A DNA stretch of 64,000 nucleotides from Clostridium sp. DSM 17811 (lineage in GTDB: Bacteria; Bacillota; Clostridia; Clostridiales; Clostridiaceae): NCBI RefSeq assembly GCF_018861905.1, contig NZ_JAHLDU010000019.1, positions 1-64,000 of the forward strand, written 5' to 3'. Made by a program: the position numbers and the translations under genes. A model generated the notes under the pieces. The model did not search any database. It was not told the origin of the DNA and saw nothing but the letters and a program-made list of their open reading frames with translations. Within the stretch, counting starts at the first letter, position 1; each line of letters starts with the position of its first letter. This document shows positions 9,362 through 51,482 of this stretch, in pieces.

Positions 9362-9400
9362 GAACATTCGTTTGATGTTTTTGAACTTATATGGTATAAT
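9362..9400 (+). promoter_or_regulatory. lexA promoter with SOS (LexA) box
   Basis: GAACATTCGTTT (9362-9373) matches the Gram-positive SOS box core GAAC-N4-GTTC except for the last base. It overlaps the -35 of a promoter reading TTGATG (9372-9377), 17 bp, TATAAT (9395-9400). Autoregulation of lexA from such a site is standard. The box also lies upstream of the divergent Cys-rich gene. Confidence 0.72.
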
Positions 9401-9425
9401 TCTACCATGAATGAGAGGTGTTTAC

Positions 9426-10034
9426 ATGTTAACTCCAAAAAAAGATAAACAGAGTGAAATATATAACTTTATAAAAGATCAAGTTCAATTAAAAGGATAT
9501 CCACCCTCAGTGAGAGAAATATGTGTAGCTGTAGGATTGAAATCCACCTCAACTGTTCATGGTCATTTAGAAAGATTAGAAAAAAAAGGATATATACGTA
9601 GGGACCCTGCTAAACCTCGTGCAATAGAATTATTAAAGGATGCTGTTATAAGAAAAGAACTTATAGATATACCTATTATAGGAAAAATTACAGCTGGGGT
9701 ACCAATCCTTGCGGTTGAGAATGTTGAAGATACATTTACTATACCTTTAAATTTTACAAAAACTAATAATGAGTTATTTATGCTTAAAGTTTCTGGTAGT
9801 AGCATGATTGAAGCCGGAATATTAGATGGTGATCTTGCTATAATCGAGAAAGTTAATTCAGCTAAAAACGGCGATATAGTTGTAGCACTTATTGATAATG
9901 AAGCAACTATTAAAAGATTTTTTAGGGAAAAAGGACATATAAGGCTTCAGCCTGAGAATTCATCCATGTCCCCTATCATATTAGATGACTGTTCAATTTT
10001 AGGTATACTCGTCGGCATTTATAGAAAGTATTAA
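9426..10034 (+). CDS. lexA: LexA repressor, SOS regulator
   Basis: 202 residues. The N-terminal winged helix (about 1-70) has the DNA-binding stretch [20 protein letters not shown]. The C-terminal S24 autoprotease domain has the scissile Ala90-Gly91 (ITAGVP), catalytic Ser126 (SGSSM) and Lys163 (ATIKRFF). RecA-stimulated self-cleavage relieves repression of DNA repair genes. The ATG at 9426 is chosen because GAGAGGTG lies just before it; the upstream in-frame ATG at 9411 has no site. An SOS box lies in its promoter. Confidence 0.96.
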
Positions 10035-12196: not shown

Positions 12197-13801
12197 TTAT
12201 TCTTCATTATTCTTAACTTCTTCAATAATTTCTTCAACAGTTTCTTTTAATTCCTCCCCTACTTTTTTATACTCAATATCAAATTTTTCATTTTGATTTT
12301 TTATAAAGTACATTAAAGCATAATAAGTAGGCTTATACTTATCCTTTAGCATAAATTCCTTTTCATTAAATAGATTTAATAATGAGTTATATTGTTTTTT
12401 AGCCATTAGTAATATAAAATACTCATTAATAAACTTATTATATTTATCTGTATTATTAGCTACTTGTAAAAACAAAGGAGCCTTTTTAATGGATTCTTCG
12501 ATTTTATCCTTCAAAAGTAAGGTTTTTGATGATTCATAGATACTGCTAAAATCGTTACAATCTCTATCTAAGTCCTTTTTATCAAAATTTAAATCTTGTT
12601 CTTTGTTTTTACTTTTATTAATTAAAAGTTCTCTACTACACCAGATTTCTAAAAAATCTACAAGCCATAACACCTGCTGTTTTTCTTTTTCTCCTCCAAA
12701 TCTTATTAGATACCATATGTTAAAGAATCGATCCTTAATTTGATACATATAATTTTTCTTATTTACAGGTATTTTATTTATTACACCATTCTTTTCTAAT
12801 TGATTTAGCTGAGCTGACACTTCTTTGCTTTGCATTCTTATTTTGTCTGCAATTTCTTTTGTAGTTATGGCCTCCCAGCTTAACGCTATAACATCAACAA
12901 TTTCTTGCTGCACTGGAGATAAATTATCCATTACGTGTTTATAAAGAGGTGTTACTTTATCCGATAATGTAGCTATGTCTTTAAAGGCTAGTCCCCTATC
13001 ACAACATACATTACTGAAAAGTAATGACATTATTCTAGGAACCCCACCAGTTAAACGCCTTAAGGCTTCTATTTTACCTTTATTACTTTTGATTAGTTCC
13101 TTCATATCTTTCTTATTAAATATTTCTCCTAATTTTTCAAAAAGTTCGTTAGTTTCTTCTGAAGTTAATCCTTTTAATTTTATTAACTTAAAGAAGTCAT
13201 AAAAAGGTTTTTCATAATCAAAGGTGAATTCTAAAACATCTGCGGATGCTCCAATAAAACGAATTTCAGCAGACGTTAATAAAATTTCTCTAAGTTTTTG
13301 CTGCTCAATAAGTTTAAACTTCTTCAAAATACCCTCAGTATTATCTATTAAAAGTATTAACTTTTTATTTTTTTCCTTAAGTCTTTGCTCTATTAGTTTA
13401 AAACATATATCTTCGTAGTTTTCTTCCTTTGCATGTTTATCCATTTGCTCATGAAGGCCTATAAATTCATAACTTTCTAGTTCAAGATCTTGTGCTACGA
13501 CCTCCCAAAGCTTAAATAATCTACGTACATTATATTGCTCCTCTGGTAATATAACAGGAATAAGCCTTTTTTTTAATTCTGTATCCCTTTTGATTTCAAA
13601 GTATATCCTTTTAAGTAAAGTTGTTTTACCATACCCTCTTTGAGCCTCTATCATATAATGCTGCTCTGGATATTTCATATCTGAACCTTTTATATCATTT
13701 ATGATTTTTTGAAATTCTTTTTTTCTTATTACAAAACTATCAATTAGGTCTTTCTCTGTTAAATTATTGGGGTTATAAAAACTTACATTACTAGTTTGCA
13801 T
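12197..13801 (-). CDS. P-loop ATPase with winged-helix domain, second gene of a two-ATPase operon
   Basis: 534 residues. Walker A is AQRGYGKTT (about 53-61) and Walker B is LILLIDNTE (about 148-156), where the usual catalytic Glu position is shifted or replaced. Sensor-like IRFIGAS follows. Residues about 300-370 form a winged-helix domain (STAND/archaeal-ATPase style, with KEIADKIRMQSKEVSAQL as the recognition part). The last 150 residues are lysine-rich and helical. The gene overlaps the upstream ATPase gene by 11 bp, so translation is coupled. It resembles the large archaeal ATPase/AAA_16-type group; no specific role can be assigned. A stress, defence or transport regulator is possible. 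Confidence 0.75.
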   Translation of the reverse strand: MQTSNVSFYNPNNLTEKDLIDSFVIRKKEFQKIINDIKGSDMKYPEQHYMIEAQRGYGKTTLLKRIYFEIKRDTELKKRLIPVILPEEQYNVRRLFKLWEVVAQDLELESYEFIGLHEQMDKHAKEENYEDICFKLIEQRLKEKNKKLILLIDNTEGILKKFKLIEQQKLREILLTSAEIRFIGASADVLEFTFDYEKPFYDFFKLIKLKGLTSEETNELFEKLGEIFNKKDMKELIKSNKGKIEALRRLTGGVPRIMSLLFSNVCCDRGLAFKDIATLSDKVTPLYKHVMDNLSPVQQEIVDVIALSWEAITTKEIADKIRMQSKEVSAQLNQLEKNGVINKIPVNKKNYMYQIKDRFFNIWYLIRFGGEKEKQQVLWLVDFLEIWCSRELLINKSKNKEQDLNFDKKDLDRDCNDFSSIYESSKTLLLKDKIEESIKKAPLFLQVANNTDKYNKFINEYFILLMAKKQYNSLLNLFNEKEFMLKDKYKPTYYALMYFIKNQNEKFDIEYKKVGEELKETVEEIIEEVKNNEE

Positions 13802-14966
13802 TTTTTTTACACCACCACATTCTTAATATTGGAGAAGTAAATGTATAAAATTTCTCCTCATCATCATTATTTATATATCCATCATCTATAAGAGTATTTA
13901 AGAGATCTTTATATGTTTCACAAAGATTATATTTTACAGCTAAATTGTGTGTTTCATTATAAGTTATCTTTTTAGCCTCTGATATAGATATTAGATCTAA
14001 TGTTTCCATAATGAACTTATAATCATTGTTTTTGTACACCACAAGCCTCTCATGCCAACTACTAAATTTATTATTTTCTTCTATCATACGTTTTATTGCA
14101 ATATCTACTGATTTATTATGTATGACGCATAAATTATCTTCATCGTAGATATCCTGGATTTTATCCATAGCAAGTTGAATATAAAAAGGAATTAACCACT
14201 TAATCTCATTAAGCATATGATTTATAGTATCCTCGTCCATAGTAAAATCCAGTCCTTTAAGTAACTCAGTTATAAGATTTTTACCCTCTGATTTACTTAG
14301 TGGAGTGACTTTTACTATATCTAGGTCATTTATAAACTTTGAAGAATCCATTCGTCTTGCAATACCCTCAAGGCTTATGGAACCTGTATATATAAATTGA
14401 AATTTATTATTTATATCACTATTTTGTCTTAAAACTCTATTACTCTGAAGGAGATGAACTGCATATGCGGTGCCTTCTTTTTGTTGAATGTTTTCTATTG
14501 TTTGAGCAAATTCATCTATCATTATAATCAATTTGTGCCCTTCTAAATCAATGGTTCTCATTATTTCTATAAATTTATCATAATAATTATCTTCAATATT
14601 TTTGCTAAATTTAACGGAGTCTATACCAACTTCATCTATACTTTTAAAAATGTTTTTAGCTATGTCCTTTATTGAATTTATTACCTTATCTCTTTTTCTT
14701 ATTGAATCACAATTTAAAATTGCTTTTACAATTTCCTTATAATACTTATTCTCGTCATACACTGACTCCGTAATTACATAAACTACATAGTACTTCTCCT
14801 TTGGGTTATCTTCTATATACCTCATTAAAGATGTCTTTCCTACTCTTCTTGGAGCTGAAATTATAATGCTGCTATCTGAATCAATTTTTCTCCATAATTT
14901 ATTTATTAAAATAGGCCTTTTAAAAAAGTTGTCCCCTCGAGCAGCTTGCCCAGTTGTAATTTTCAT
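13791..14966 (-). CDS. Archaeal-type AAA+ ATPase, first gene of a two-ATPase operon
   Basis: 391 residues. Walker A is APRRVGKTS (about 38-46), Walker B is LIIMIDEFAQ (about 146-155), and the sensor-1 strand is FQFIYTGSI (about 190-198). A C-terminal winged helix ends in FTSPILRMWWCKKN, a tail typical of the archaeal ATPase (PF01637-like) family. GGAGG lies before the ATG at 14966. Transcription starts from a near-perfect promoter inside a palindrome at 15000-15057. The protein and its overlapping partner probably work as one complex. The biological role is unknown, and no nuclease or other obvious effector is encoded beside them. Confidence 0.78.
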   Translation of the reverse strand: MKITTGQAARGDNFFKRPILINKLWRKIDSDSSIIISAPRRVGKTSLMRYIEDNPKEKYYVVYVITESVYDENKYYKEIVKAILNCDSIRKRDKVINSIKDIAKNIFKSIDEVGIDSVKFSKNIEDNYYDKFIEIMRTIDLEGHKLIIMIDEFAQTIENIQQKEGTAYAVHLLQSNRVLRQNSDINNKFQFIYTGSISLEGIARRMDSSKFINDLDIVKVTPLSKSEGKNLITELLKGLDFTMDEDTINHMLNEIKWLIPFYIQLAMDKIQDIYDEDNLCVIHNKSVDIAIKRMIEENNKFSSWHERLVVYKNNDYKFIMETLDLISISEAKKITYNETHNLAVKYNLCETYKDLLNTLIDDGYINNDDEEKFYTFTSPILRMWWCKKNAN

Positions 14967-49808: not shown

Positions 49809-51308
49809 TTAATTCTTATGTTTTATAATTCCTATAGCTGTACCTATAATATATGTATCTTCACTATCAATAACAATAGGTTTATATTTTTCATTTTCAG
49901 GCATTAGTAATATTCTATCACGACCTATGGAAAGTCTCTTTAGAGTAGCATTTCCACCTATATCTACTGCCACAATATCCTTATTGTTTGCTGCTTGTTC
50001 CTGCCTTATAACAACATAATCCCCATCATCTATGTTAGCTCCAATCATACTATCACCTTTAACTTTTAAAATAAAAGGATTCTTAATTCCCTTTAACCAA
50101 TACTTCGGGATGTAGAAATTGCCTTCTATTTCGGAATTAATCTGTATAGGTTCCCCTGCTGCTATATCACTGTATACAGGAAGTTCCACTAATTCCTCAT
50201 TTATGTACTCATAGTCACCTTTTTCATCATTTACTATAATATCAGATATTCTACTGTAATCCCTCATAAAGTCATATGCTCTGCCATGTCTTATATCACA
50301 ATATTGAAAATTCTCTAGATCATCAACATTCAAATTGTTAACTATTATATCCTCATGGGTTTCCATAGGTTTTTCTTGAGATTCGTAATTATTTTTAAAT
50401 ATATATGATTTTACTTTTTCGTCTAGAGGCCTAATATTAACTCTTTTGCCTTTTACCATCCATGAATTAGCATTATATTCCCCATCTATATCAACAAGAA
50501 ATGTCATAGTAGAATAAGATTTTTGTTTATAAAGAGCATTAATAAACTCCAATTGCACCTTAGTTAAATTATCACTTTTGTCAATTATAATATGAGTATA
50601 CTTGCCCATTGAAACAGACTGTAACATTTTCAGTGCATATATATTAACATCTTCGTCATCAACGAAGTTTTCCAAATTAAGCTTTTCATTATACATAATC
50701 ATAAGTTCATATATCGCTTTTCTAGCAGTAGAATTTTTATTAATTCTTTGTGGACCTTGGCCTTTTTCACATTTTCTACCTGTTCTATTTACTTGTAGAT
50801 ACAAATCGGCTTTCAAGTAATTACAACTTTTAACCCACTTTACCTCATCTATAAAAAACTGAGTATAATCGATCTGTAGTATTCTTAATCTTGGATAATT
50901 ATCCTTAACTTTCAATATACAATCTTTCATAATATTTTTCTTATCATTCTCTATAATTATTTCTTTTTTTAATTTATATCTATCTTCGTATTTCAAAAAA
51001 TATTTGTACATAATACTTTCTAATGTAAGCACTTGGGGTTTTATTTTCTCATTAGAAAATATACTTAAATACTCGAATCTAGTTTCTTCCTGTGCTACTA
51101 TGTATGTATTTTTAATAGAATTTATATCCTCTTCATTAGATGTAAGCATTAATACTTTATCATCATCGTATAAACAATAGTTATTTTTTAAATAGAGGCT
51201 TCTATAAATGGCTGCAGTTGTTTTACCTGTTCCTTTAGCACCTCTAATTAAACTATATCTTGAGGGTTTGCTATGAATCATTCTATGTTGTTTTAAACCT
51301 AGTTCCAT
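49809..51308 (-). CDS. UvrD-like P-loop domain fused to a LexA-type S24 autoprotease domain
   Basis: 499 residues in two parts. Residues 1-300 look like the 1A/1B part of UvrD/Rep helicases: Walker A IRGAKGTGKTT (21-31) and a 1B-like DEVKWVKSCNY...NRTGRK. But the DExQ motif II is IIDKSD (241-246, Glu replaced by Lys) and motif III lacks its Gln (DIDGEY), so helicase activity is doubtful; the 2A/2B half is absent. Residues 375-499 form an S24 domain with scissile Ala384-Gly385 (IAAGEP), Ser420 (GDSM) and Lys457 (ATLKRL). I infer RecA-triggered self-cleavage separating the halves. No HTH is seen. No clear SOS box upstream. Confidence 0.82.
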   Translation of the reverse strand: MELGLKQHRMIHSKPSRYSLIRGAKGTGKTTAAIYRSLYLKNNYCLYDDDKVLMLTSNEEDINSIKNTYIVAQEETRFEYLSIFSNEKIKPQVLTLESIMYKYFLKYEDRYKLKKEIIIENDKKNIMKDCILKVKDNYPRLRILQIDYTQFFIDEVKWVKSCNYLKADLYLQVNRTGRKCEKGQGPQRINKNSTARKAIYELMIMYNEKLNLENFVDDEDVNIYALKMLQSVSMGKYTHIIIDKSDNLTKVQLEFINALYKQKSYSTMTFLVDIDGEYNANSWMVKGKRVNIRPLDEKVKSYIFKNNYESQEKPMETHEDIIVNNLNVDDLENFQYCDIRHGRAYDFMRDYSRISDIIVNDEKGDYEYINEELVELPVYSDIAAGEPIQINSEIEGNFYIPKYWLKGIKNPFILKVKGDSMIGANIDDGDYVVIRQEQAANNKDIVAVDIGGNATLKRLSIGRDRILLMPENEKYKPIVIDSEDTYIIGTAIGIIKHKN

Positions 51309-51482
51309 TTAATCACCTCCACTGTCGCTATAATGATATTATACAATAATATCCCCCTTAAAGTAAAATTTATTGATTCATTTATAAAATTTTGCAATTT
51401 TACTTCTTTATATATAAAATATAACTTCAAATAAATTAGTCAAAAAATTTGAAAAATTACCAATATAACAACATTGGATTTA

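Follow-up and report, generated by a model that had tools for sequence, protein, structure and literature searches.

A truncated UvrD-like module joined to a LexA-type autoprotease domain in Clostridiaceae, and its longer helicase-nuclease relatives

The repressors LexA and CI undergo RecA-driven self-cleavage, and so does UmuD, which is activated by cleavage through the same chemistry. The protein considered here, encoded in a 64-kb window (the whole stretch of DNA that was analysed), is like the LexA repressor in its S24 domain, AAGEP cleavage loop and Ser-Lys dyad, but LexA carries a winged-helix DNA-binding domain, whereas the window protein has a UvrD half and a bridge in that place, with no LexA box upstream of its gene. 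It is like UmuD in being a non-repressor with a LexA-type self-cleaving domain; UmuD, however, has a short cleavable arm and a umuC partner, whereas here the N-terminal part runs to ~370 residues and no umuC is adjacent (judged by eye). With the SF1A helicases UvrD, Rep and PcrA it has in common the 1A/1B region (by profile), Walker A and the Q motif, but it is without 2A/2B, motifs IV-VI and the motif III Gln, and its catalytic Glu is replaced. The best solved-structure profile match of its N-terminal half is HelD, a UvrD-like protein that recycles RNA polymerase and is not known to carry an S24 domain. The PADLOC models for Gabija GajB and NERD+UvrD match a longer relative of the window protein but not, at E 0.01, the window protein itself, and neither family is known to carry S24. 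No description of a UvrD/S24 architecture was found among PubMed Central open-licence titles and abstract openings, and the available part of PMC3765255 has no occurrence of 'UvrD' or 'S24'.

Gene and domain architecture

The gene (Table 1) starts with ATG behind a GGAGGTG ribosome site at 51315-51321. The initial annotation had described its product as a UvrD-like half and an S24 domain in one protein, and the two halves do match Pfam separately, UvrD-helicase (PF00580) over residues 7-268 (E 3.3e-9, 37.2 bits against a cut-off of 23) and Peptidase_S24 over residues 377-492 (E 1.4e-29). The Q motif is present in the UvrD half, and the residues singled out by that annotation lie where it had placed them: the Walker A loop is intact, DKSD stands in place of DExQ, the motif III Gln is missing, and the scissile pair A384-G385 is followed by S420 and K457. 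The UvrD C-terminal domain (2A/2B) has no Pfam match in the 499-aa protein, which is hence also without motifs IV-VI, so that the N-terminal half lacks residues and domains that a working helicase needs. Nor does the protein have a helix-turn-helix match in Pfam; residues 7-268, which match UvrD, hold no repressor-type DNA-binding domain, in line with the claim that it is not a repressor.

Comparison with curated protein models places the C-terminal part near LexA. The NCBIfam LexA model (TIGR00498) scores 107.9 bits, below its cut-off of 110.95, in an alignment that starts at model position 77 and so covers only the C-terminal part of LexA; the UmuD model (NF007621) scores 67.9 bits (cut-off 110) and the HelR model 16.8 bits (cut-off 750). 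LexA and UmuD are also the best solved relatives of this part. Among solved structures, a profile of the N-terminal half pooled from short and long forms (below) finds HelD at E 1.4e-8 and, more weakly, PcrA at E 3.5e-4; the single sequence gives only a marginal match (HelD, E 0.036). Four other proteins of the same short type were scanned with Pfam, of which two pass the UvrD cut-off, one falls below it at 18.1 bits and one has no UvrD match; some distant short forms, to judge from the last two, have drifted beneath the Pfam threshold.

As the initial annotation had noted, no partner gene is evident by eye (no helicase, nuclease, umuC or recA among the adjacent genes) and lexA lies ~40 kb away, at 9411-10034. 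Rfam gives no match within the 64-kb window. Elsewhere in the window, two adjacent ATPase-like genes, recognised by eye from their P-loops, occupy 12197-14966 on the minus strand.

Table 1. Coordinates of the gene, its protein modules and its upstream elements in the window
Feature	Position	Strand	Evidence
Whole gene, 499 aa, short form (pseudo-UvrD, bridge, S24)	49809..51308	-	
UvrD/Rep 1A-1B-like module, residues 1-300	50409..51308	-	Pfam PF00580, residues 7-268; short + long profile matches HelD and PcrA chains
Walker A GAKGTGKTT, residues 23-31	51216..51242	-	Lys in 60/60 short forms
Former DExQ, now DKSD, residues 243-246	50571..50582	-	D, E, Q in 44/44 long forms; catalytic Glu in 13/60 short forms
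Bridge, residues 329-372, common to both forms, without Pfam match	50193..50324	-	Alignment; dN/dS 0.107
LexA/UmuD-type S24 autoprotease, residues 373-499	49812..50192	-	Pfam, NCBIfam, solved structures; dN/dS 0.065
Predicted scissile bond A384-G385; upstream fragment would end -DIAA	50154..50159	-	IAA before scissile G in 60/60 short forms
Catalytic Ser420	50049..50051	-	60/60 short forms
Catalytic Lys457	49938..49940	-	58/58 short forms reaching the column
Promoter-like -35 TTTACT / -10 TATAAT, spacer 18 bp	51338..51367	-	-10 region similar in 10 group members aligned
Inverted repeat across the -10 element; possible operator	51329..51343	none	Arms differ in step between several species

A longer relative and the descent of the short form

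Relatives of ~815 aa occur in the same genus and well beyond it, and carry a complete UvrD helicase, a PD-(D/E)XK nuclease-like domain (HSDR_N_2) and the same S24 domain. In the three long forms scanned, Pfam E-values range from 2e-27 to 3e-22 for UvrD_C and from 3e-23 to 5e-19 for HSDR_N_2. The window protein is homologous to the long form over 1A/1B, bridge and S24, and is without 2A and the HSDR_N_2 nuclease; the junction of its two halves falls at the position that in long relatives holds the ~300 residues of 2A and nuclease. In 35 long forms D568 and K588 never vary and E586 hardly does, a pattern that fits a PD-(D/E)XK active site. The LexA model scores 113.5 bits against one long form (P0003), above its cut-off, and the only annotated long relative of nearly full length that was seen, from Ilyobacter, is named 'S24 family peptidase'.

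A scan of named genomes was read for the best 80 of 199 confirmed loci, 28 of them with the short form and 52 with the long form or parts of it. Within these 80 loci the long form comes from Clostridia, Bacilli (Gracilibacillus, Lederbergia, Aquibacillus) and Fusobacteriota (Propionigenium). In Heliophilum (L068, 401-2864) it is split into two overlapping ORFs, one with the helicase and part of the nuclease (609 aa) and one with the nuclease end and S24 (213 aa). The reverse loss is seen in five Clostridium loci of the long type, which have the helicase and no S24 match in any locus ORF of at least 100 aa.

PADLOC models for GajB and NERD+UvrD match the long form at E-values down to 1e-42, but PcrA, UvrD and Rep match it about equally well (1e-33 to 1e-39), so these matches reflect kinship to UvrD and are not proof of defence. 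Nine of the 52 long loci have, immediately beside the long form and on its strand, a gene for a protein of one cluster, whose two scanned members are NERD+HRDC proteins in Pfam; this gene and the long form make a candidate two-gene defence system. Ten neighbouring proteins were scanned as representatives of recurrent clusters, two of which are encoded next to the short form (clpS and clpA, below). The other eight are a NERD+HRDC protein, GmrSD, DUF2357+PDDEXK_7, an AAA_11/AAA_12 helicase with DUF2726, a Schlafen-group-3 helicase, a ResIII helicase, an HNH nuclease, and one protein without a Pfam match that has a PADLOC candidate match. Of the 52 long loci, 23 hold a member of at least one of these eight restriction- or defence-type clusters (22 among the 41 loci of at least 9 kb), and none of the 28 short loci does; this contrast leans towards the long form because the clusters were picked from long loci. 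The long form thus sits in a defence-like setting. Nearly identical long proteins are present in C. yunnanense, C. manihotivorum, C. zeae and C. folliculivorans, in all four behind the NERD cluster and otherwise in largely different surroundings, which suggests recent horizontal transfer among these species.

In trees of the N-terminal and S24 parts, from which most incomplete or S24-less rows and nine near relatives of the window's gene were dropped, most short forms lie beyond one well-supported branch. A second short lineage of eight rows (L129, L136, L139, L141, L142, L143, L145, L150) lies inside the long forms, beside those of C. beijerinckii and C. uliginosum. On 29 rows, selected so as to keep out long branches, a single origin of the short form is rejected: its log-likelihood is 99.4 lower, the p-AU is 9.6e-7, and it appears in 0% of 200 bootstrap trees. 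The two lineages have different gene surroundings in the loci read, and in one genus (g18) each of the 15 lineage-assignable genomes shows, among the matches listed, one short form, seven from the second lineage and eight from the first. These trees indicate that the short form is a truncated derivative of the long form that arose twice, 2A and nuclease being lost each time and the protease kept. The second lineage has lost the catalytic Glu in 7 of 8 rows and retains the scissile Ala-Gly and the Ser in 8 of 8. Descent from a long fusion also means that the fusion predates the damaged motifs; the initial annotation, which gave no strand, was correct in observing the fusion and had overlooked the long relative and this order of events. 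A still shorter form of 351 aa is encoded on the minus strand of L039 (5818-6873), with bridge and S24 kept and a P-loop half of ~180 residues in which no Walker A is visible.

Constraint and distribution

Conservation was scored, after duplicates had been discarded, in 60 short and 44 long proteins, each at least 400 aa long and with its two ends encoded in a single ORF. The residues of the predicted self-cleaving site are the most constant (Table 1 for the short forms). Among long forms the scissile Ala and Gly are found in 42 of 44, the other two, both fusobacterial (L112, L121), having no cleavage loop in the alignment, and the S24 Ser and Lys in all 44; two short rows end before the Lys column. 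The Walker A Lys is likewise kept in all 41 long rows that reach its column. Loss of the residues for hydrolysis is not uniform in the alignments: the catalytic Glu survives in the minority of short forms given in Table 1, and the motif III Gln, present in 44/44 long forms and in 0/41 short forms of the first set, occurs in two short rows, L141 and L145, out of the 51 in the second tree. A set of 1B residues is conserved in both forms.

For the short gene dN/dS is 0.18 overall. Within the window's group (15 proteins) the medians are 0.22 over residues 1-300 and 0.45 over the linker, with the lower values of Table 1 for bridge and S24, all of them approximate because synonymous distances are high. 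These ratios indicate that the protease is under the strictest constraint and that the P-loop half is also constrained, though no longer as a motor, for which nucleotide binding without hydrolysis would be the natural reading. Without 2A, however, the Walker A loop may bind nucleotide weakly or not at all.

Near full-length short forms are present in 15 of the 17 genomes of the genus, and were not found in G009 or in G013 (51% complete). Among the matches listed for 206 genomes, a family taken as Clostridiaceae from its named members, they are present in 112, about half; here 'short' means a match over most of the profile, and weak long or partial forms could be missed. This count leaves out fragments or genes with stops in four genomes (G469, G468, G574, G513) and includes two with one internal stop each (G442, G454) and three shortened ones (G517, G470, G032). 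That the gene is a functionless, decaying leftover could be argued from its damaged hydrolysis motifs and from the few relatives with stops or cut short (G442, G454, G513, G574), but it is contradicted by the selection test, by this distribution and by two independent origins, and we give it next to no credence; chance or a dead gene was rejected on the same dN/dS and genome counts.

The nearest named relatives of the window's genome are C. frigoris, C. lacusfryxellense, C. tagluense, C. bowmanii, C. psychrophilum and C. algoriphilum, the cold-loving C. estertheticum group. Near surroundings are stable in the window's group: one flank carries an unknown gene, then a DegV-like gene and carA/carB (all named by eye, and with one or two extra genes intervening in some members), and the other a polysaccharide deacetylase, not named by eye. 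The short forms are clostridial except in two metagenome bins named Bacillota or Bacilli. A survey of 391 genomes of the class was dominated by LexA and served as a source of extra loci only; it included an odd match in G277, a 575-aa frame with one TGA that belongs to another family. Not one of the 21 candidates from viral contigs could be confirmed, and a search of phage records with the long form P0003 as query had no match at E 1e-25; a phage origin was rejected on these results. The protein has no HTH match and no phage setting, unlike a phage CI-type repressor.

Regulation, proposed mechanism and alternatives

As LexA box we used the consensus GAACNNNNGTT[CT], which is perfect in all four lexA control genes (those of the window, L028, L029 and L030; L068 was left out because it is no lexA gene but a long-family fragment). 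The host lexA has a perfect box, GAACATTCGTTT, at 9362, 49 bp upstream of its ORF. Within 300 bp upstream no perfect box was found in 60 short and 42 long genes, against 4/4 controls; the best site upstream of the window's gene has two mismatches, and one-mismatch boxes (6/60 short, 4/42 long) are no more frequent than in shuffles (12.9%, 14.4%), which the best scores of the short and long genes also resemble. Membership in the LexA regulon was therefore rejected at the level of the canonical box, and any response of the protein to DNA damage would run through cleavage, not via LexA. The initial annotation had proposed an SOS-triggered switch; the best-preserved part of the protein is indeed the self-cleavage site, but the missing box speaks against a plain SOS gene.

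Promoter-like sites of the kind found upstream number 17 in the region, against 14.6 expected by chance. The inverted repeat across the -10 element has arms TATAAT/ATTATA in the window and ATACT/AGTAT in most other relatives aligned, and is a possible operator for an unnamed regulator. The version found in relatives recurs, with at most one mismatch, once or twice per genome in 12 of the 17 genomes of the genus. No shared operator or regulon emerged among the seven sites away from the gene, four of which lie in one aminotransferase-like gene (by eye), and this candidate was rejected.

We put at about even the chance that the protein is a post-translational, non-repressor self-cleavage switch whose cargo, a nucleotide-binding pseudo-helicase, is cleared after RecA-provoked cleavage, a reading in which self-cleavage, the RecA trigger, Clp clearance and a cargo that binds nucleotide and DNA or a partner are all inferred from sequence. 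The intact protein would probably be a dimer through its S24 domain, with the 1A/1B module binding nucleotide and DNA or a partner protein. When single-stranded DNA accumulates, a RecA filament would provoke cleavage at A384-G385, which would part the pseudo-helicase from the dimerisation domain and bare a C-terminal -IAA, and Clp proteases should then remove the fragment. DNA damage would in this way clear the pseudo-helicase without a transcription step. The switch of the initial annotation, which was to release or destroy the P-loop part, is plausible but incomplete.

The Clp step draws on the residues before the scissile Gly. The -VAA end of cleaved LexA is a ClpX signal; the corresponding residues are IAA in every short form and, among 44 long forms, IAA in 25, VAA in 14, another triplet in 3 and none in 2. 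The chemistry does not require the second Ala, since the host LexA has I-T-A at this place. The same residues bear on the opposite reading, that cleavage activates: S24 would hold the pseudo-helicase inactive and the freed N-terminal fragment would be the active, DNA- or RNA-polymerase-binding form. UmuD is a precedent, and the P-loop half is under selection, with its 1B residue set conserved in both forms, but a fragment ending in -IAA in 60 of 60 proteins would bear a LexA-type Clp mark, and we hold this alternative to be rather unlikely.

A clpS gene lies directly downstream of the short gene in 7/7 genomes of the C. carboxidivorans genus, followed by a clpA-like gene in the seven named loci read (e.g. 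L065, 9522-12043). Elsewhere clpS is farther away or not found, and in the window's genome it is on another contig. ClpS was found in 20 of the 60 relatives first searched, and among the matches listed for the 206 genomes 28 of 112 short-form genomes have no ClpS match while 35 genomes have ClpS without the short form (naive Fisher p 5e-8 for co-occurrence, relatedness ignored). A ClpS partnership was set aside as clade-bound, with direct adjacency in one genus only, and is kept as a lead.

Cleavage is itself a prediction, and S24 might serve as a dimerisation or partner-binding module whose self-cleavage is unused, as the fusobacterial long forms without the loop might suggest. Dimerisation alone, however, needs none of the scissile bond, Ser and Lys that are invariant in short forms of both lineages, and we regard this as improbable. 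More improbable still, in our estimate, is a decoy or brake on the long helicase-nuclease, for example through mixed dimers via the common S24. The two proteins belong to one family with the same S24 and bridge, and among the matches listed 23 of 112 short-form genomes also show the long form, but the other 89, including the window's genome, do not. An obligate partnership with the long form was rejected on that count.

Loss of the motor on two occasions with strict retention of the protease indicates a definite function, for a gene present, among the matches listed, in about half of the family's genomes. With a cargo derived from a helicase, RecA-driven self-cleavage would have a third type of output, immediate and outside the LexA regulon. 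The long form in turn raises the possibility of a nuclease in a defence setting that is gated by the host's DNA-damage signal. More tentatively, and with more doubt than confidence, we suggest that a mobile, probably anti-phage helicase-nuclease captured a LexA-type autoprotease and so became a RecA-controlled nuclease, and that Clostridia twice made from it a resident, ATPase-dead, self-destructing pseudo-helicase, which would form a transcription-free branch of the damage response that is neither a repressor nor a polymerase subunit.
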